64,000 nt of DNA. It comes from Lentzea sp. NBRC 105346 (lineage in GTDB: Bacteria > Actinomycetota > Actinomycetes > Mycobacteriales > Pseudonocardiaceae). How positions within the stretch are numbered: the stretch's first letter is position 1; the number at the start of each line of letters is the position of its first letter. The notes under the pieces are model-generated. The model was not told the DNA's origin. It made no database searches and saw only the letters and a list, made by a program, of their open reading frames with translations. Both the position numbers and the translations under genes were made by a program. Positions 10,090 to 64,000 of this stretch are shown one piece after another. The stretch is taken from NCBI RefSeq assembly GCF_030269605.1, contig NZ_BSTQ01000009.1, positions 1 through 64,000 on the forward strand, in the 5' to 3' direction.

Positions 10090-10458
10090 CACCGCCGTCT
10101 CGTGTTACGCCTTGCGGGTTTTGCCGACTGCCGCATGATCACGAGCCGCTTTAGCGTTGGTGCATCGGACGTCCTTGACGTCACAGGTCCGGGTACCCGT
10201 CGCCGGTGAGCGGGGCCCGCGAGGCCCGCCGCGGGTCCAGCCCCCGCGGCGGGCCTCGTTGCTTTGCCTCGGGGGTGGGTGCCCGCGAAGGCGCCGGCGC
10301 TGGTTACCACGGGGTGGGGTGACCGATGGGGCGAGGGCGACCACCGACGGGGGTCCGGGGGCCAAGCCCGCCGGGCGGGGTCTGGGGGTTGCCCCCCAGA
10401 AAACACCCCCCGAGAGCAATGGCGAGCGCTCTCCGCGAGCAGGCTCCGCCTGCTCGAG
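10090..10458. other. Intergenic segment with hairpins
   Basis: No convincing gene. It holds the terminator-like hairpin at 10221-10257, a GC-rich stretch with a second stem TCTGGGGGTTGCCCCCCAGA at 10381-10400, and the stem GAGCAGGC/GCCTGCTC at 10437-10455 immediately 3' of the leftward tRNA gene, which may aid its termination or processing. Confidence 0.5.
10221..10257 (+). terminator. Strong GC hairpin downstream of the LuxR gene
   Basis: Fifteen-base perfect arms GAGGCCCGCCGCGGG and its complement around a 7-base loop, followed on the plus strand by GTTGCTTTGCC. It is 130 bases past the stop codon at 10089 and probably ends that transcript. Confidence 0.55.
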
Positions 10459-10532
10459 TGGGGTCGGGGGGACTCGAACCCCCACTGGCTGGAACCTAAA
10501 TCCAGTGCCTCTGCCAATTGGGCTACGACCCC
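10459..10532 (-). tRNA. tRNA with UAG anticodon (Leu by codon), short variable loop
   Basis: The minus strand folds as a 74-base tRNA: acceptor GGGGTCG/CGACCCC, D-arm GCC/GGC with loop CAATTGGCAGA, anticodon stem CTGGA/TCCAG with loop TTTAGGT (anticodon TAG, reading CUA/CUN leucine codons), variable loop CCAGT, T-arm GGGGG-TTCGAGT-CCCCC, discriminator A73. CCA is not encoded. The odd point is the five-base variable loop, because bacterial leucine tRNAs normally have a long extra arm. The discriminator A fits leucine, but the class I body leaves the charging enzyme uncertain. Confidence 0.85.
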
Positions 10533-11702: not shown

Positions 11703-14000
11703 ATGGGCGTGGACAGAAGGGCTTTCCTCGGCGGCACCACGGCGGCGGTCACCGCCGGCCTGCTCGTTCCCACGGGAGCTCATGCCGTTGCGGAGCCGCT
11801 GTCATCCGACGTCTCTGCTTGCGAAGGTATGTCGGAACTTGATTGGCGCGCGTTCATCGGCGCGCAGGACCTCATCTGGAAGTCGGCGCCGACGAAGTAC
11901 GGGCAGGCGCCGTTCCTCGGGGACGGCCGGCTCGGCAGCGTCGTGTACGCCGAGGGCAACACCGTGCGGTTCACCGTGCAGCACGCCGAGGTGCAGGACC
12001 ACCGCGCCAAGGACGGCACCCAGTTCGGCGTCTGCCGCCTGCCCGTCGGCAACCTCGTCGTCACTGCGACCGGCACGGTCACCGGGATCGACTGGCGCCT
12101 CGACCTGTGGAACGCCGAACTCAAGGGGACCGTCACGACCGACAAGGGCGTGATCGAGTTCCGCGCGTACGTGCACACCTCGCGGTCCGTGTTGCGCATC
12201 AAGGTCGAGACCGAGGGGCAGGAAGAGCCCGTCGTCGCGTTCAACCCGTCGAAGGCCATCCCGCCGCGCGCGGCGTTCAACCCGTTGCCCGAGGGCTACC
12301 AGTTCAACCCGGACTTCACGACCAGGACCGACGGCAAGGAACAGCTGGTCACGCAGAACCTGCTCGTCGGCGGCCAGACCGCGACCGCTTATCGGATCAC
12401 CAAGGGCCGCCGCAGCCAGACCCTGCTGCTCGCCGTCGCGCACACGTACCCGGACGCTACGGCCGAGGTGAAGGCGCTCAGCCTGGTGCGGTCGGCGGCG
12501 GCGCTCGGCGACCGGATGCTCGAGGTCACCCACCGGATGTGGTGGAACGCCTTCTACCAGAAGAGCTTCCTGTCGATTCCGGACCAGCGGATGCAGTCGT
12601 TCTACTGGATCCAGCTCTACAAGGTGGCGTCCGGCTCGCGCGCCGGCGGGCCCGTGATGGCGACGACCGGGCCGTGGCTGGAGAGCACGCCGTGGGCCGG
12701 CGCCTGGTGGAACCTGAACATGCAGCTGCAGTACTGGCTGCTGCACGGTTCCGGGCACCTCGAGCTGGACGCGATCACCACGACGCTGAAGGCCAACCAG
12801 GAGCAGCTCGTCAAGAACGTGCGGCCGGAGTACCAGCACGACTCGGCCGGCGTGAACCGCAGCACCGACCGGTTCACCAGCAACACCGGCTTCCTCGCCG
12901 TGCCCAGCCCCGGCGGCGGCACGAAGGAGCTCGGCAACCTGACGTGGGCGCTGCACAACGTGTGGCTGTCGTACCGGCACTCGATGAACAAGACGATCCT
13001 CGCCGACGTCGTGTTCCCGTTGCTGCGCCGGGCGATCAACTACTACCTGCACTTCCTGACCAAGGGCAACGATGGCAAGCTGCACCTCGACGAGACCACC
13101 TCGCCCGAGTACGGCAACGCGCCCGACTGCAACTACGACCTGCAGCTGATCCGGTGGGGCTGCCAGACGCTGATCGACTCTGCGAAGATCCTCAAGATCG
13201 AGGACCCACTGGCGCCCAAGTGGCAGGAGGTCCTGGACAACCTCGTGCCGTTCCCGGTGAACGAGAACGGCTTCATGATCGGTGCCGGGGTGCCGTTCGC
13301 GGTGTCGCACCGGCACTTCTCGCACCTGCTCGCGATGTTCCCGCTGATGACGGTGAACTGGGAGCAGCCGGAGAACCGCGAGCTCATCGAGAAGTCGTTG
13401 CACCACTGGATGTCGCTCGAACCCGCGCACCGCGGCTACAGCTACTCCGGCTCCGGCTCGATCGCCGCGCGCATGTTCCGCGGCGACGAGGCGCTCGCGT
13501 ACTTCGTGAAGCTGTTCGACACCACCAAGCGGTTCCCGGTGCTGGAGAACACGATGTACACCGAGGCCGGACCGGTCGTCGAGACGCCGCTCTCCGGTGC
13601 GCAGACCATCCACGACTTCCTCCTGCAGAGCTGGGGCGGCGTGATCCGCGTCTTCCCGGCCGTGCCGTCGGTGTGGAAAGACGCCATGATCGACCGGCAC
13701 TCCGCGGAGGGCGGGTTCGACGTCACCGCCCGCCGCGCCGCGGGGAAGACCGAGTTCGTGCTCGTGCGCAGCCGCGCGGGCGAACCGCTGGTGCTGCGGC
13801 ACGGCATCGAGGGCGAGGTCACCGTGCGCACGCCGTCCGGCGGGCCGGTCCAGCACCGCGACCGCGGTGACGGGACGCTGGAGATCGAGCTCGCCAAGGG
13901 CCGCGAGGTGCTCGTGCACCCCAAGGGGAAGCGGCCCGACCTGACCGTCAAACCCGTCGCCATCTCCGTCCCCGGCAAGCCGTGGGGCCTGCCGGGCTGA
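11703..14000 (+). CDS. Tat-exported GH95-like glycoside hydrolase
   Basis: 765 residues. The N-terminus MGVDRRAFLGGTTAAVTAG is a twin-arginine signal, with cleavage near THA (about residue 27). The body shows the GH95 (alpha-L-fucosidase/alpha-L-galactosidase) layout: an N-terminal beta domain beginning with a substrate-contact strand (FLGDGRLGSVVYAEG), an all-helical barrel from about 260 to 660 with HRHFSHLLAMFPL and AHRGYSYSGSGSIAARM, and a C-terminal beta domain with FLLQSWGGVIRVFPAVPS. Some family motifs are altered, so the exact sugar is uncertain. An AGGAG precedes the ATG. It is followed after 55 bases by the GH27 gene in the same direction, probably one transcript. Confidence 0.82.
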   Translation: MGVDRRAFLGGTTAAVTAGLLVPTGAHAVAEPLSSDVSACEGMSELDWRAFIGAQDLIWKSAPTKYGQAPFLGDGRLGSVVYAEGNTVRFTVQHAEVQDHRAKDGTQFGVCRLPVGNLVVTATGTVTGIDWRLDLWNAELKGTVTTDKGVIEFRAYVHTSRSVLRIKVETEGQEEPVVAFNPSKAIPPRAAFNPLPEGYQFNPDFTTRTDGKEQLVTQNLLVGGQTATAYRITKGRRSQTLLLAVAHTYPDATAEVKALSLVRSAAALGDRMLEVTHRMWWNAFYQKSFLSIPDQRMQSFYWIQLYKVASGSRAGGPVMATTGPWLESTPWAGAWWNLNMQLQYWLLHGSGHLELDAITTTLKANQEQLVKNVRPEYQHDSAGVNRSTDRFTSNTGFLAVPSPGGGTKELGNLTWALHNVWLSYRHSMNKTILADVVFPLLRRAINYYLHFLTKGNDGKLHLDETTSPEYGNAPDCNYDLQLIRWGCQTLIDSAKILKIEDPLAPKWQEVLDNLVPFPVNENGFMIGAGVPFAVSHRHFSHLLAMFPLMTVNWEQPENRELIEKSLHHWMSLEPAHRGYSYSGSGSIAARMFRGDEALAYFVKLFDTTKRFPVLENTMYTEAGPVVETPLSGAQTIHDFLLQSWGGVIRVFPAVPSVWKDAMIDRHSAEGGFDVTARRAAGKTEFVLVRSRAGEPLVLRHGIEGEVTVRTPSGGPVQHRDRGDGTLEIELAKGREVLVHPKGKRPDLTVKPVAISVPGKPWGLPG

Positions 14001-56324: not shown

Positions 56325-57176
56325 TCAGGCCTCGGCCGGCGGATCCGCGAGCGCCTGGTACGCGGGCCGGAGCACGTCGACGAGGCCGGCACCTCGCACG
56401 GTGACGGGCACGGCGTCGAGCTGGTCGAGCACCGCATCGGGCCGGCCCGTCAGCGCCGCGGGCGGTCCGCCGAGGGCGATGGTGTTCTGCTTCGTCCAGA
56501 ACGTGTCCAGGCACTTCGTCAGAGGCGGTGCGTCCCCCTCGCCGACCGCCGCCAGTCGCTGCTCGGCCCGCACCTTGGCGCCGCGCAGGGTGCGGAGCCG
56601 TTCGAGTAGGTCGTCACGGCCGCGGCCGCGCCACGCGAGGATTTCGAAGGGGTCCTTGTCGAACGATTCGGCCAGCAGGTAGCAGGTTGCGGCGAGGTGC
56701 TTGCACGGAACTTCCCAGTCCGGGCACGAGCAATCCATAGTCAACTCGCGCATGGACGTCGGGAAAAGCCGCAGACCCAGCTCTGCGAACAGGTCCTCGA
56801 TGTCCGGAGGCATCTCGCCGGCCAGCAACTTGGCCGCGTACAAAGCCTTGCCCGCCAAGGCTTCCTCGATGCGGCGCCACTCCGCGGCGGTGAAGGCCTT
56901 GATCGCGATGCGCGTTTTGTACGGGGTTGGGCGCGAGCCCTGGACGAGGGCGATCACCATGCTCGTCGACAGCGACAGGCTCAGCACCTGGCCCTGCCGG
57001 GCGTATGCGCGGCCGCGCGTGAGGCGGCCGCCCATGCCGAACGACTCCAGGACTTCCAGGAAGCGGCGTGACCACCAGGTTTGGCCTATTTCGCCGCGTT
57101 TGCTGCGGGCTTTCAGGCCGCCCTCTACTCGGATGGGCTTCTGATAGGGGCCGTAGCCGGACCAGTGGTCACTCAC
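56325..57176 (-). CDS. SWIM zinc finger protein paired with an SNF2 ATPase
   Basis: 283 residues. The SWIM motif is CSCPDWEVPCKH (CxCx6CxH) at about 149-160, a zinc-binding module for DNA or protein contact. The N-terminus (WSGYGPYQKPIRVEGGLKAR) is typical of actinobacterial partners of SNF2-type helicases. It starts within the end of the SNF2 gene (eight-base overlap) and so is translated with it. Likely an accessory subunit of a nucleic-acid remodelling complex. Confidence 0.9.
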   Translation of the reverse strand: MSDHWSGYGPYQKPIRVEGGLKARSKRGEIGQTWWSRRFLEVLESFGMGGRLTRGRAYARQGQVLSLSLSTSMVIALVQGSRPTPYKTRIAIKAFTAAEWRRIEEALAGKALYAAKLLAGEMPPDIEDLFAELGLRLFPTSMRELTMDCSCPDWEVPCKHLAATCYLLAESFDKDPFEILAWRGRGRDDLLERLRTLRGAKVRAEQRLAAVGEGDAPPLTKCLDTFWTKQNTIALGGPPAALTGRPDAVLDQLDAVPVTVRGAGLVDVLRPAYQALADPPAEA

Positions 57177-60150
57177 CGACGGCCTCCCCGGAGAGGGCCA
57201 GCAGTTCGCGCAGCTGAGTTGTCGAGAGCTCGGTCAGCCAGTTCTCGCCCGCGCCGACTACCAGCTGCGCGAGGGCGCGCTTCTCCTCGATCATGCGGTC
57301 GATGCGCTCCTCCAGCGTGCCGATGCAGACGAACTTGCGCACCTGCACCTTCTGCGTCTGGCCGATGCGGAACGCGCGGTCGGTCGCCTGGTCCTCGACC
57401 GCCGGGTTCCACCAGCGGTCGAGGTGGATCACGTGGTTCGCCGCCGTCAGGTTGAGGCCCGTGCCGCCTGCCTTGAGGGACAACAGGAAGATCGACGGGC
57501 CGCGCGTCGACTGGAACCGTTCGACCATGGCGTCGCGTTGCGCCTTGTTCGTGCCGCCGTGCAGGAACAGGACGTCGGTGTCGAAGCGCGCGCTCAGGTA
57601 GGGCACCAGCATGCTGCCGAACTCGGTGAACTGCGTGAAGCACAAGGCTTTGTCGCCCTCGGCCAGCACCTCGTCGAGGATTTCCTCCAGCCGCGTCAGC
57701 TTTCCCGAACGTCCCGCTACGCGGGAGCCGTCGCTCAGGAAGTGGGCCGGGTGGTTGCAGACCTGCTTGAGCTTCGACATCGTCGCCAGCACCAAGCCCT
57801 TGCGCTGAATGCCTTCGCTGTCGTCGATGCGTTGCAGCATGTCGTTGACCACGGCTTGGTACAGCGACGCCTGCTCTGGGGTGAGGTTGCACAGCTGGCG
57901 CATCTCCACCTTGTCCGGCAGGTCGGTGATGATGCGCGGATCGGTCTTCACGCGGCGCAGCACGAACGGTGTGGTGATCTTGCGCAGGCGGGCTGCGGCG
58001 TCCTCGTCGTTGTGGCGTTCCACCGGCACCGCGAAGCGTGCGCGGAATGTGTTGACCGTGCCCAGGACGCCGGGGTTCGCGAAGTCCATGATGGACCAGA
58101 GTTCCGCCAGACGGTTCTCGATCGGAGTGCCCGTCAGCGCTACGCGGTGGCGTGCGGAAAGTTGGCGCACCGCCTGGGACTGTCTCGTGTTGCTGTTCTT
58201 GATGTTCTGCGCCTCGTCGAGCACGACGCGTTCCCAGGTGATCTCGCCCAGCGCGTCGGCGTCTCGCGCTGCCAACGCGTACGTGGTCAGCACGAGGTCG
58301 TGCTCCTCGACCGCCTCGCGTAGCGCGTCGCCGTTGAAGCGGTCCGCGCCGTGATGCACATGCACGGACAGCTCGGGGGTGAAGCGGACCGCTTCGCGCT
58401 GCCAGTTGCCGACTACCGACATCGGGCAGATCAGCAACGTCGGCGGCAGCTTTTCGTTGGCGCGGTTGAGGGCTTCCAACGCCAGCAGCTGCACGGTCTT
58501 GCCGAGACCCATGTCGTCGGCCAGGCACGCGCCGAGCCCGAGCTTGTCCAGGAACGCCAGCCAGGCCAGCCCGCGTCGCTGGTATGGGCGCAGCGTCGCG
58601 CCGAAACCCTCCGGCGGCTCGACCGGTTCCAGGCTCTGCTCGACCTTGCCGGACAACAGGTCGCCGAGCCAGCCGTCGCCGGTGACGGCGTTGAGCGGCA
58701 ACGGAAGGCTTTCGTCCTCCGGGTGCAGTCCACTGTGGAGCATGGCTTGTGCAGCGGTCATCTGGCCGCCGCCACGCTTGAGGAACGCCAAGCCGGCCGC
58801 CAGGCGTTTCTGGTCGACCTGCACCCACTGTCCGCGCACCTTGACCAGCGGCACCTTCGCAGCGGCTAGCGCCGCGAGTTCGGCCTCGGTCAGCGTGTCC
58901 TCGCCGAGCGCGAGCTCCCACTTGTAGTCGACGATCGACTTCAGGCCGATCTCGCTCTCCTTGGCCACCGCGCCCGCGGTGCCGCGGCTCGACGTGGTGA
59001 GCTTCAGGCCGAGCTTGGCCGGGTGCTGCCACCACGAGGGCAGCAGCACGCCGAACCCGGCCTGCGTCAGCAGCGGCGCGCTCTGCAGGAAGCGGTACGC
59101 GCCCTCGGCGTCGACCTCCAACTCCGCGGGATGCGAACTGTGCAGCGCCTGGTCCAGGTCCGGGCACAGCCGGCCGGCCCGCCCGAGGTCGGTCAGCAGG
59201 AACTCCTGCGGCGACGGCACCCACCGCCGCAGCACGCTGTCGTCGGCGAACCACACCTGCTCGGCGGTCACGAGCACACTGGGGTCGTCGACCGACTGCA
59301 GCAGGAACTCGACGGCCCACTCGTCCTGGAACTCGTCGCCCTGACCGGGGGAGCGCAGGCGGAAGCACGTGCGCACCGGACTGTTGCGCACTCCGCTCGC
59401 ATGCCACCGCTCGAGGTGCTCGCGCAGCTCGTACAGCTCGACCGGGTCGGCCTCGAACGCGGGCTCACCCGTGAGCGCGTCGAGCCACGTCTCGACCGTG
59501 GTCGCCCGGCCGCGGCGTTTCGGCGCGATCTTCAGCGGGCCGAGCCGCGTCCGCACCTCCTCGTCCACCGCGGTGGCGAGCGCGGCGCGCACCAGGTCGG
59601 CCGGACTGCTCACGATCTCCTCGCACCGGCACGCCGGTGGCATCGCCGCCTGCAGCGACGCGAACCGTGCGGTGTCCGCTCCAGTCAGCGCGGGCACCCA
59701 GCACGCCACCGGCCGGTCGGCCGCGATCGACGGCAGCACGCGTCCGCGGGCGACGAGGTCCTTCGCGAACGACGCCACCTCGAACACGAACCGCGCCGAG
59801 TCGCTCAGGCGCACCTCGTCCACCGGTGCGGCGTCCGGCCGCAACGGGATCGTGGGGACACCCCACGGCCGCAGCTTCACGGTTCCGCGCGGCGCGCGCC
59901 CGGCCGTGAGCGGATCGCGGACGAGCTCCGGCGACGCAGCGGGTCCGCTCGCGAACGACGGCAGCAGCAACGTCCGCGTGGTCGCCTTGACCTCGTCGAG
60001 GCCGACGGCGTCAGCGAGCGCGTCCGCGCCCGCCGCGAACGGGTGCGGCACGTCCCGGCGCTTGCTGTCCGTGCGTGCGGGCAGCTCGGAGTCCTCCGCC
60101 CACAGGACCGGTCGCCCGTCGGCGGTGCAGAGTCCATGCAACACCAGCAC
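57169..60150 (-). CDS. SNF2-family DEAD/DEAH-box ATPase
   Basis: 993 residues. An N-terminal region of about 500 residues is specific to this bacterial group. The SNF2 core then has motif I LADDMGLGKTVQLLALEALN (about 545), motif II VVLDEAQNIKN, motif III ALTGTPIENRLAELW, and C-terminal helicase motifs with FLLSLKAGGTGLNLTAANHV and ATDRAFRIGQTQKVQ. A double-strand DNA translocase that could remove proteins or remodel nucleoprotein. GTG at 60150 or 60144; TAGGGT on the minus strand six bases upstream suggests a leaderless transcript. Operon with the SWIM gene. Confidence 0.92.
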   Translation of the reverse strand: MLVLHGLCTADGRPVLWAEDSELPARTDSKRRDVPHPFAAGADALADAVGLDEVKATTRTLLLPSFASGPAASPELVRDPLTAGRAPRGTVKLRPWGVPTIPLRPDAAPVDEVRLSDSARFVFEVASFAKDLVARGRVLPSIAADRPVACWVPALTGADTARFASLQAAMPPACRCEEIVSSPADLVRAALATAVDEEVRTRLGPLKIAPKRRGRATTVETWLDALTGEPAFEADPVELYELREHLERWHASGVRNSPVRTCFRLRSPGQGDEFQDEWAVEFLLQSVDDPSVLVTAEQVWFADDSVLRRWVPSPQEFLLTDLGRAGRLCPDLDQALHSSHPAELEVDAEGAYRFLQSAPLLTQAGFGVLLPSWWQHPAKLGLKLTTSSRGTAGAVAKESEIGLKSIVDYKWELALGEDTLTEAELAALAAAKVPLVKVRGQWVQVDQKRLAAGLAFLKRGGGQMTAAQAMLHSGLHPEDESLPLPLNAVTGDGWLGDLLSGKVEQSLEPVEPPEGFGATLRPYQRRGLAWLAFLDKLGLGACLADDMGLGKTVQLLALEALNRANEKLPPTLLICPMSVVGNWQREAVRFTPELSVHVHHGADRFNGDALREAVEEHDLVLTTYALAARDADALGEITWERVVLDEAQNIKNSNTRQSQAVRQLSARHRVALTGTPIENRLAELWSIMDFANPGVLGTVNTFRARFAVPVERHNDEDAAARLRKITTPFVLRRVKTDPRIITDLPDKVEMRQLCNLTPEQASLYQAVVNDMLQRIDDSEGIQRKGLVLATMSKLKQVCNHPAHFLSDGSRVAGRSGKLTRLEEILDEVLAEGDKALCFTQFTEFGSMLVPYLSARFDTDVLFLHGGTNKAQRDAMVERFQSTRGPSIFLLSLKAGGTGLNLTAANHVIHLDRWWNPAVEDQATDRAFRIGQTQKVQVRKFVCIGTLEERIDRMIEEKRALAQLVVGAGENWLTELSTTQLRELLALSGEAVGE

Positions 60151-60220: not shown

Positions 60221-61693
60221 ATGCCCGAAGCACCGCTGGACCTGGGCCCGTCGGACGAACCGGTCGTCCTGGACGGCCGGTCGCTCGGCGGCGAGGACGT
60301 TGTCCGCGTCGCCCGGTTCCACGTCCCCGTCACCGTGCACGCCGACGGACGCCACCGCGTCGAAGCGTCGTGGCATGCCACCCGCCGGCTCGTCACGCAG
60401 CAGTTGATCTACGGCCGCAACACGGGTGTCGGCGCCAACCGCAGCGAGGTCGTCGACGCGTTCGGCGAGGCCGATCACGGTCTGCGCCTGCTGCGCAGCC
60501 ACGCGGGCGGGCTCGGCGGCATGCTCCCGGAGGAGCAGGTTCGCGCGATGCTGGTCGTCCGGCTCAACCAGCTCCTCGCGGGCGGCGCCGGTCTGCGCCC
60601 CGCCGTGGTCGACGCGCTGACGGACGCGTTGAACAACAGCTGCTATCCGGGCGTCCACGAGTACGGCGCGATCGGTACCGGTGACCTCACCGCACTCGCC
60701 GAGACCGGTCTCACCCTCATCGGCGAACGTTTCTGGCTCGGTTCGACAACCACCCCTTCCCCGATCGAACTGGACTCCGGCGACGCGCTGGCGCTGATCA
60801 GCAGCAACGCGCTCACCATCGGCATGGCCGGCCTCGCGTGGCACACCGCCCGCCAGCTGCTGCAGGCGGCGCACGTCGTGACCGCGTTCTCCTTCCTCGC
60901 CGTGAACGGCTCGACGGAGGCCTACGCCGAGCGTGTCCACCAGGGCCGGCCGCACCCCGGTCAGGTCGCGGTCGCGGCCGAGATGCGGAGGTTGCTCGGT
61001 TCTCCCGGATCCGGTGCGCGGATCCAGGATCCGTTCGGGTACCGCTGTTTCCCGCAGATCCACGGCCCCGCGATCGACGCCGTCACCGACCTCGGACGCG
61101 TACTCGAGGTCGAGATCAACGCCGCCGCCGAGAACCCGCTCGTGTGGGCCGAGGACGACGCCGTGTACCACCACGGCGCGTTCCACTGCGCCTACCTCGG
61201 CCAGACGCTCGACCGGGTCCGGCTCGCCCTGCTGCACACCGGTCACCTGTCGACCGCGCGGCTCGCCACCCTCGTGGAGCCGAGCTTCACGGGGCTCAGG
61301 CCGTTCCTGGCGGAAGGCGTCAGCGGCAGCTCGGGGGTGATGATCCTCGAGTACAGCGCGGCCTCCGCGCTCGCCGAGGTGCGCACCCTCGCCGAACCCG
61401 CCAGCCTGGGCAACGCTGTCGTGTCGCGCGGGCTGGAGGAGCACTCCAGCTTCGCTTTCCAGTCGGCGAGCCAGGCGTTGCGCTCGCTGTCGGCGTTCCG
61501 GCTCGTGCTCGCCTGCGAGCTCGTCGCTGCCGTGCGTGCCTTGCGGTTGCGCCGGGTGGTGCCTGGGACGCCTTCGTTGCGGGCGGCGTTCGAGCTGGCC
61601 GAGTCCAAGTTGAACCCGGATATGGCGGACCGGCAGCTCAGTCCGGACGTCGAGGCCGCGTCAGCGTTGCTGGACGACTTCGCCCTCTGCTGA
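60221..61693 (+). CDS. HAL/PAL superfamily protein with non-canonical MIO triad
   Basis: 490 residues, aligning along its length with histidine/phenylalanine ammonia-lyases. Y64 is in LIYGRNTGVGANR, the position of the catalytic tyrosine. At the MIO site, normally GSVGASGDLAPLA, it reads GAIGTGDLTALA: the Ala-Ser-Gly triad that cyclises into the MIO cofactor is G152-T153-G154. Further on, QDPYSLRC-type sequence is QDPFGYRC (F272 for Tyr). NPLVW and EEHSSFAFQSA remain. It may form an unusual prosthetic group from Thr, use another chemistry, or be inactive. ATG at 60221 without a clear ribosome site. It converges on an aldo-keto reductase gene. Confidence 0.85.
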   Translation: MPEAPLDLGPSDEPVVLDGRSLGGEDVVRVARFHVPVTVHADGRHRVEASWHATRRLVTQQLIYGRNTGVGANRSEVVDAFGEADHGLRLLRSHAGGLGGMLPEEQVRAMLVVRLNQLLAGGAGLRPAVVDALTDALNNSCYPGVHEYGAIGTGDLTALAETGLTLIGERFWLGSTTTPSPIELDSGDALALISSNALTIGMAGLAWHTARQLLQAAHVVTAFSFLAVNGSTEAYAERVHQGRPHPGQVAVAAEMRRLLGSPGSGARIQDPFGYRCFPQIHGPAIDAVTDLGRVLEVEINAAAENPLVWAEDDAVYHHGAFHCAYLGQTLDRVRLALLHTGHLSTARLATLVEPSFTGLRPFLAEGVSGSSGVMILEYSAASALAEVRTLAEPASLGNAVVSRGLEEHSSFAFQSASQALRSLSAFRLVLACELVAAVRALRLRRVVPGTPSLRAAFELAESKLNPDMADRQLSPDVEAASALLDDFALC

Positions 61694-62780: not shown

Positions 62781-63197
62781 ATGGTTGCCATGGACGCGCT
62801 CTCCGCCGAGGTGGTGGCCCTGCTCGGGCGCATCACGGACCGCTACATCCGCGAATACGAGACGGCGGCCGCGCGGCACGGGATCACGCCGCAGCAGGCC
62901 AAGGCGTTGCTCGCCCTAGAGGAGCCGCTGCCGATGCGGCGCGTCGCCGAACGCGTGGGGGTCGAACCGTCCAACATCACGGGCATCGTCGACCGGCTGC
63001 AGACGCGTGGACTCGTCGAACGGCAGGCCGACCCAACCGACCGGCGTATCAAGCTCATCGCCACGACCGACGCCGGGAAGTCCGCCGCTGCGGATCTGCG
63101 CGGCCACCTCCGGTTCGCGAGCGACCCGCTCGTCGCGCTCACCGAACCTCAGCGCCGTGCCCTCCGTGACCTGCTCCACCTGATGGCGGAGTCCTAG
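62781..63197 (+). CDS. MarR family transcriptional regulator
   Basis: 138 residues; the ATG at 62790 is a possible alternative start. Winged helix with HGITPQQAKALLALEEPLPM and ERVGVEPSNITGIVDRL, and the wing at ERQADPTDRRIKLIATT. A dimeric repressor that senses phenolic or oxidant ligands in many cases. It very probably controls the divergent aldo-keto reductase and itself through the inverted repeat at 62730. Confidence 0.92.
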   Translation: MVAMDALSAEVVALLGRITDRYIREYETAAARHGITPQQAKALLALEEPLPMRRVAERVGVEPSNITGIVDRLQTRGLVERQADPTDRRIKLIATTDAGKSAAADLRGHLRFASDPLVALTEPQRRALRDLLHLMAES

Positions 63198-63250
63198 CGG
63201 CCTGCGTCGACGGTCTCGGCTTCGGCTGTCGGGTTTCGCGCGGCCGGCGT

Positions 63251-63671
63251 GGTGTCGGTGGCGCCGGTTGGTGCACCTTGCGTGGGTGCCGCGGCGTTGG
63301 GGTGCCGGGGTGTGCTGGTGGTGGGTGGTCGGGGGATGCGCGGGCTGGCGGTTGGGGCGCTGTTTGGTGCACCTGGGGTGGTGCCGCGGCGGTGGGGTGC
63401 CGGGGTGTGCTGGTGGTGGGTGGTCGGGGGATGCGCGGGCTGGCGGTTGGGGCGCTGTTTGGTGCGCCTGCGGTGCTGCCGCGGCGGTGGGGATCGGGCG
63501 CTGTTGCGGTGGTTCGGGGCGTGGCTGGTGTCGGTGGCGCCGGTTGGTGCGCCTTGCGTGGGTGCCGCGGCGTTGGGGTGCCGGGGTGCGCTGATGGTGG
63601 TGAGTGGTTGGGGGATGCGCGGGCTGGCGGTTGGGGCGCCGTTTGGTGCACCTGGGGTGGTGCCGCGGCGC
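63251..63671. repeat. GT-rich higher-order tandem repeat
   Basis: A 276-base period: GGTGTCGGTGGCGCCGGTTG begins at 63251 and again at 63527, followed by about 140 bases of match. Inside the first unit a 70-base segment starting at 63301 is repeated exactly at 63396 (95-base period). The plus strand is G-rich with many GGGG and GGTGG runs, so G-quadruplexes are possible. The plus-strand frames read Gly/Trp/Val-rich and the minus-strand frames His/Pro/Arg-rich text, neither like a protein. Confidence 0.7.
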
Positions 63672-64000
63672 TGCGACCGGGGCCGCAGTTGTTGCTGTGG
63701 CTGACCGCAGTTGGTCCAGGGGCGGTGGCTGCGTCGTTGGTGTGCCTCGGGGGCCTGGCGCTTGTCTGCGGTTGGACATTCGCGGTACGGCGGGCGCTGC
63801 TTCGTGCACCTCGGGAGGTGCCGCGGCGTCTGAGTGTGACCGGGTCCGGGACGGCGCCGCCTGGTGCACCTGGACGGTGCCGGGGCGCTCGGGTCCGGAG
63901 ACCTGGTCGAGGCTCGCGCTCAACCCGGCCGCGGGGCCGGGCAGGCGTGCGGGATTGGTTGGGCCCGCACGGGCTGGGTGCTGTGCCCGCCGACTGGGGG
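63672..64000. other. Gene-free right edge
   Basis: No supported gene in the last 330 bases. Fragments of the neighbouring repeat recur (GGTGCACCT near 63800 and 63860, GTGCCGCGGCG near 63817), so this is probably decayed repeat. A gene entering from the right cannot be excluded. Confidence 0.45.

Follow-up and report, generated by a model that had tools for sequence, protein, structure and literature searches.

The window, a 64,000-nucleotide stretch of DNA from Lentzea sp. NBRC 105346 (NZ_BSTQ01000009.1), carries a gene that resembles those of histidine and phenylalanine ammonia-lyases (HAL and PAL), and its product does not have their Ala-Ser-Gly triad. Does such a protein still act as a lyase, and if so, on which substrate? 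The open frame at 60221–61693 on the forward strand encodes 490 residues and scored 403 bits with the Pfam model of the aromatic amino acid lyase family (PF00221; cut-off, 27.3), in agreement with an earlier note on this DNA that described a full-length HAL/PAL-like protein. Its predicted model had a mean pLDDT of 87.0 and a TM-score of 0.86 to HAL in the fold search. HutH (TIGR01225) and the window lyase thus share family and fold, and residues aligned with HAL Y53, H83, Q277, R283, F329, and E414 are found in the window protein. However, its score with TIGR01225 was 331.8 bits, below the cut-off of 539.15, and neither the ASG triad nor N195 of HAL is present. The 9.4-Mb host genome has a separate HutH, which keeps a three-residue triad (CSG), and three TAL/PAL-like paralogues that keep ASG. 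The lyase gene was found in 23 of the 24 same-genus genomes searched, the window's own genome counted (E up to 1e-70). Lentzea sp. NEAU-D7 carries two near-identical copies on two contigs (L045 and L046), and the homologues at L128 and L130 contain an in-frame insertion near residue 190, the length of which is very approximately 95 and 150 residues, respectively. The gene and the sites discussed below lie in the window as follows.

60221–61693 (+): HAL-family lyase of 490 residues, presumed to lack MIO; predicted hercynine (histidine betaine) trimethylamine-lyase
60410–60442 (+): Y64 to R74 (YGRNTGVGANR); Y64 aligns with HAL Y53
within 60410–60442 (+): V70, aligned with ergothionase V59; F59 in HAL
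within 60410–60442 (+): R74, aligned with ergothionase K63; A63 in HAL; varies in some wider relatives
60665–60691 (+): contracted cofactor loop, residues 149–157 (GAIG-TGDLT), one residue shorter than in HAL; same length in ergothionase 6s7j
60800–60811 (+): S194-S195-N196-A197, replacing HAL N195-G-T-Q; SCNA in ergothionase
61043–61045 (+): R275, aligned with HAL R283 and ergothionase R280
61169–61174 (+): H317-H318, invariant in 81/81 sequences; S-G in HAL; varies in some wider relatives
61349–61354 (+): E377-Y378, aligned with ergothionase Q382-K383 and HAL Q385-V386; possible specificity site, to judge from the alignment
61436–61438 (+): E406, aligned with HAL E414 and ergothionase E411

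We aligned the window protein with HAL and with the products of 80 further loci. Out of 385 confirmed loci, these are the best 80; they include two from one strain and were found with six peptides of the window protein, so that the set leans towards the query. In the loop, the window reads GAIG-TGDL where HAL reads GSVGASGDL. G152 aligns with HAL G141, the Gly preceding the triad, and between G152 and D155 there are only two residues (T153 and G154) against three in HAL (A142-S143-G144). The earlier note had placed the triad at G152-T153-G154; the letters are correct, but the register was off by one. This contraction was found in all 81 sequences (the window and the 80 loci), none of which has the Ala-Ser-Gly or Cys-Ser-Gly of HutH. 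With one residue missing from the loop, the usual formation of MIO is impossible. Invariance across the 81 extended to 25 of the 27 positions listed, including the contraction, Y64, R275, and E406 (HAL Y53, R283, and E414) and S194, which stands where HAL has N195. The two varying positions were 196 (Asn in 76) and 272 (Phe in 36, Tyr in 45). The Asn that had been reported missing from LALISSNAL is therefore absent throughout, and the earlier description of Y64, NPLV, and the Glu block is correct; F272, which had been singled out in place of Tyr, was read correctly and does not define the clade. The contraction and S194-S195 are also kept in seven actinobacterial sequences that are more distantly related. 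In these, T153 is replaced by Ile in two and G154 by Ala in two (IGDL and TADL loops), and R66, R74, and H317-H318 vary.

These results suggest that the clade is very probably free of MIO. The notion, raised in the earlier note, of a MIO-like group arising from Thr in G-T-G would make the protein an ordinary ammonia-lyase. T153 is indeed invariant in 81/81, but we regard this reading as highly improbable because the loop is one residue short, Ser replaces HAL N195 in 81/81, wider relatives have Ile or Ala in the loop, and ergothionase 6s7j has Glu at the position of T153. Moreover, both the window genome and the relative L142 already possess a HutH with an ordinary triad.

On sequence grounds, the nearest precedent for the contracted loop is ergothionase, a trimethylamine-lyase without MIO, which was absent from the options listed in the earlier note. 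Ergothionase has been described as lacking MIO (PMC13405746) and as releasing thiolurocanate and trimethylamine (PMC7653990). When a profile of residues 138–232 from seven clade members was searched against the PDB, ergothionase 6s7j was the first match (E 4.2e-7); the next match had an E value of 3.8e-4, and the P. putida HAL chains written with ASG letters had 2.8e-3. MIO chains in the PDB are partly written with X, which lowers the scores of some of them and not of the chains with letters. 6s7j ranked 9th with the full-length profile, 8th with the N-terminal fragment profile, 19th of 30 with the C-terminal fragment profile, and 15th with the single window sequence. In the fold search it was 9th with a TM-score of 0.85, similar to HALs, and searches with short raw fragments of the lyase gave no useful alignment with ergothionase. 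At the two sites, the sequences are SSIG-EGDI and LSIVSCNA in 6s7j, GAIG-TGDL and LALISSNA in the window lyase, and GSVGASGDL and LALLNGT in HAL. Thus, the Treponema denticola enzyme (6s7j and 6s7q) and the window lyase have in common the HAL fold, a loop without MIO contracted by one residue, the S[SC]NA motif, GVG, and an aligned Tyr, Arg, and Glu (Y53, R280, and E411 of 6s7j for Y64, R275, and E406). They share 25% identity in the Foldseek alignment and differ in the pocket, where K383 of 6s7j, which we take to be catalytically important, is replaced by Y378; this Tyr occurs in 81/81 sequences, although one of the six search peptides (SGVMILEY) covers residues 371–378.

In an unrooted tree of 37 sequences, from which the loop, NGT, and GVG columns were left out, 19 actinobacterial sequences formed one side of a branch with support of 100/100. 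The same 19 together with 6s7j and a Sinorhizobium relative formed one side of a branch with moderate support (84/87). The MIO sequences fell on one side with 69/59 only and were on one branch in only 72% of bootstraps. Four rhizobial/Agrobacterium sequences, whose loop is shorter by three residues and which keep NGT, grouped on their own (100/100) on the MIO side, which suggests, as far as the tree tells, repeated loss of MIO. These four are the HAL-like proteins of L115 (9845–11338), L117, L134, and L137, which read GSVG or GSAG followed by YLTH or YLVH. The L115 protein (WP_038497112.1), annotated hutH and located in an Agrobacterium ergothioneine-type cluster, resembles the window lyase, as do its rhizobial relatives, in belonging to the HAL family without ASG. 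Its gene also adjoins a betaine transporter and a urocanase-family gene, as do those of some relatives of the window lyase; unlike the window lyase, it has the shorter loop (GSVG---YLTH), keeps NGT, and lies on the MIO side of the tree. In Sinorhizobium meliloti, the gene at L135 3929–5569 (+), also annotated hutH, has an ergothionase-like loop (VG-QADM) and SSNA; ABC transporter genes and one annotated as dimethylsulfoniopropionate lyase lie close by.

Comparison of the window gene with five relatives gave Ka/Ks values of 0.16, 0.19, 0.21, 0.28, and 0.39, indicating purifying selection rather than decay. A decaying lone paralogue is ruled out by these values, the conservation in 81/81, and the tree. 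The outcome that the earlier note gave as a refutation, scattered and degraded homologues, did not appear; the clade is conserved.

Codon-bias gene calls gave shadow frames, including one antisense to the window lyase, and neighbouring genes were therefore counted with tblastn markers, using identity cut-offs of 35–50% and a half-length requirement chosen by us. The neighbourhood set comprised 81 loci (the 80 named loci and a locus on an Arthrobacter plasmid), with several flanks cut short. An ATPase of a betaine-type ABC transporter was found near the lyase gene at 43/81 loci, and HutU (urocanase) at 33/81. Among 44 Streptomyces loci, the ATPase was found at 35, the permease at 34, the binding protein at 33, an RpiR regulator at 34, HutU at 29, an amidohydrolase at 23, HutF at 18, and HutI at 7. 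The Arthrobacter plasmid locus has the ATPase, permease, binding protein, HutU, amidohydrolase, and HutF. The transporter and RpiR accompanied the lyase at all 5 loci of Saccharothrix, Umezawaea, and Crossiella, where HutU was found at none, and at 1 of 4 Prauserella loci; the 5 Streptosporangiales loci gave the ATPase at 1, RpiR at 2, and HutU at 3. Six regions of more distant relatives, two of them on short contigs, had the transporter nearby in three (L142, L144, and L145) and HutU in two (L142 and L143). At L142, genes for an RpiR-like regulator, HutH (ASG), the ATPase, two permeases, the binding protein, the lyase, an amidohydrolase, HutU, HutF, and HutI run in one direction, and the lyase gene overlaps the binding-protein gene by 4 bases (start codons as listed).

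At the 22 loci of the Lentzea group, the tblastn markers detected no transporter, RpiR, amidohydrolase, or hut genes within reach, and the related transporter of the host lies on another contig (C4), approximately 2.5 kb from hutH-hutU and away from the lyase. All 22 loci have instead an SNF2 neighbour, in the window the following gene, which we do not think is part of the lyase function.

57169–60150 (-): divergent SNF2-type helicase of 993 residues

The window neighbours of the lyase gene (SNF2, SWIM, aldo-keto reductase, and MarR) gave no functional clue. Together with the loss of the MIO residues, the solitary position of the Lentzea gene beside the SNF2 gene would be compatible with a pseudoenzyme or a sensor for histidine-like ligands. 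This option of the earlier note is nevertheless very unlikely, because Y64, R275, and E406 are invariant in 81/81, selection is purifying, and the lyase gene of L142 is arranged in an operon-like manner among genes for catabolic enzymes. The other option, a different reaction, is favoured by the ergothionase-like contracted loop and by the catabolic neighbours in relatives.

To which pathway would such a reaction lead? We scored the urocanases of the host, L093, L114, and L142 with the models of urocanase (TIGR01228; cut-off, 375), thiourocanate hydratase (cut-off, 930), and S-methyl thiourocanate hydratase (cut-off, 880). All four scored highest with TIGR01228 (911, 896, 875, and 934 bits, respectively) and fell below the cut-offs of the two other models. 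In contrast, the L115 cluster scored 975.8 bits for S-methyl thiourocanate hydratase, 782.8 for ErtD, and 576.1 for ErtE, all above the cut-offs, and in this its hydratase differs from the four urocanases. Among 11 lyase genomes (the twelfth, G322, was left out), canonical HutU was matched in 11/11, above the cut-off in 10 and as a contig-edge fragment in one. Thiourocanate hydratase was above the cut-off in 0/11, its model matching only the HutU place, and ErtD was above the cut-off in 0/11, with sub-threshold relatives in 10/11 (best, 321.7 bits; cut-off, 600). HutU occurred in 11/12 lyase genomes and in 124/384 others (p 4.6e-5, kinship ignored), and in 5/6 lyase genomes when the commonest genus was excluded (p 0.016, kinship again ignored). 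The linkage to canonical urocanase, which recurs among relatives and is absent in Lentzea, would fit an imidazole-acrylate product, and this partner gene is a further difference from the Treponema denticola ergothionase.

The host binding protein of the transporter is of the OpuAC type (191 bits), a family whose ligands are quaternary amines, and scored 108.7 bits with the OsmF model, below the cut-off of 400. Its nearest solved relatives were engineered acetylcholine/nicotine sensor proteins and ProX, followed by the ergothioneine-binding protein EgtUC, which ranked 11th (88–89 bits) behind osmoprotectant and engineered sensor proteins. Relatives of EgtU outside its subcluster are described as not keeping the ergothioneine-specific residues (PMC9732360). 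The kinship with EgtUC, the loop contraction and S[SC]NA common to 6s7j, and the presence of EgtD in the host would all be compatible with a strict ergothionase that converts ergothioneine to thiourocanate and trimethylamine. We consider this unlikely, given the canonical nature of the urocanases tested, the 0/11 counts for thiourocanate hydratase and ErtD, Y378 in place of K383, and the low rank of EgtUC.

Based on these findings, the window lyase is probably an ergothionase-type enzyme without MIO that converts hercynine to urocanate and trimethylamine and so feeds the ordinary histidine pathway, the substrate being deduced from the partner genes and the loop. Hercynine is histidine betaine (Nalpha,Nalpha,Nalpha-trimethyl-L-histidine) and is made by the methyltransferase EgtD. 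With its EgtD gene, the host could form hercynine internally; EgtD had no match in 4 of the 9 lyase genomes tested, and its absence there fits hercynine uptake. HAL depends on MIO to make the amino group of its substrate able to depart. The departing group of hercynine would be trimethylamine, which leaves readily by itself, and we infer that an electrophilic MIO would not be needed. Y64 would take the beta-proton, R275 would hold the carboxylate, and E406 and the pocket would position the imidazole and the departing amine. Departure of trimethylamine would yield urocanate, which would pass to HutU, HutI, and HutF of the ordinary histidine-utilisation pathway. The clade lacks the loop and the Asn that serve MIO and retains the Tyr, Arg, and Glu.

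A MIO-less trimethylamine- or amine-lyase acting on another substrate, such as partly methylated histidines or other aromatic betaines, in the same or another pathway, would accommodate H317-H318 and E377-Y378, which are unlike both HAL and ergothionase, the variation of pocket positions among wider relatives, and the lack of hut genes in several neighbourhoods. The recurrent linkage to canonical urocanase speaks against it, and we hold it to be improbable. On balance, we lean slightly towards viewing the clade as a branch of hercynine trimethylamine-lyases within the HAL family, free of MIO, spread over several classes of one phylum, and serving as a second entry lyase beside HutH. A search of titles and opening abstracts, with subscription journals mostly outside its range, found no description of a hercynine lyase or of this clade, which is not proof of novelty.

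Genes of the clade can easily be labelled histidine ammonia-lyase, since their best matches include the hutH models, albeit with scores below the cut-off. If hercynine is the substrate, the clade would be an entry into hercynine catabolism and a bacterial source of trimethylamine, and a single pathway would be entered through two lyases, of which only one uses the cofactor. It would also offer a natural test of the purpose of MIO, in which the same fold performs the same type of elimination with or without MIO according to the quality of the leaving group, and a loop one residue short with S-[SC]-x-A would be the sequence rule separating both types.

Further features were observed around the loci. 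The region of L143 contains a second HAL-like frame (12461–13918, -) approximately 1.7 kb from the lyase gene, which reads VGAAGEIQPLAH and LALLAGAP, with the triad Ser replaced by Ala and no Asn. In the window, the only tRNA gene is that of tRNA-Leu at 10458–10532 (-), and repetitive Pro- and Thr-rich open frames occupy 63139–64000 (-) at the right edge.
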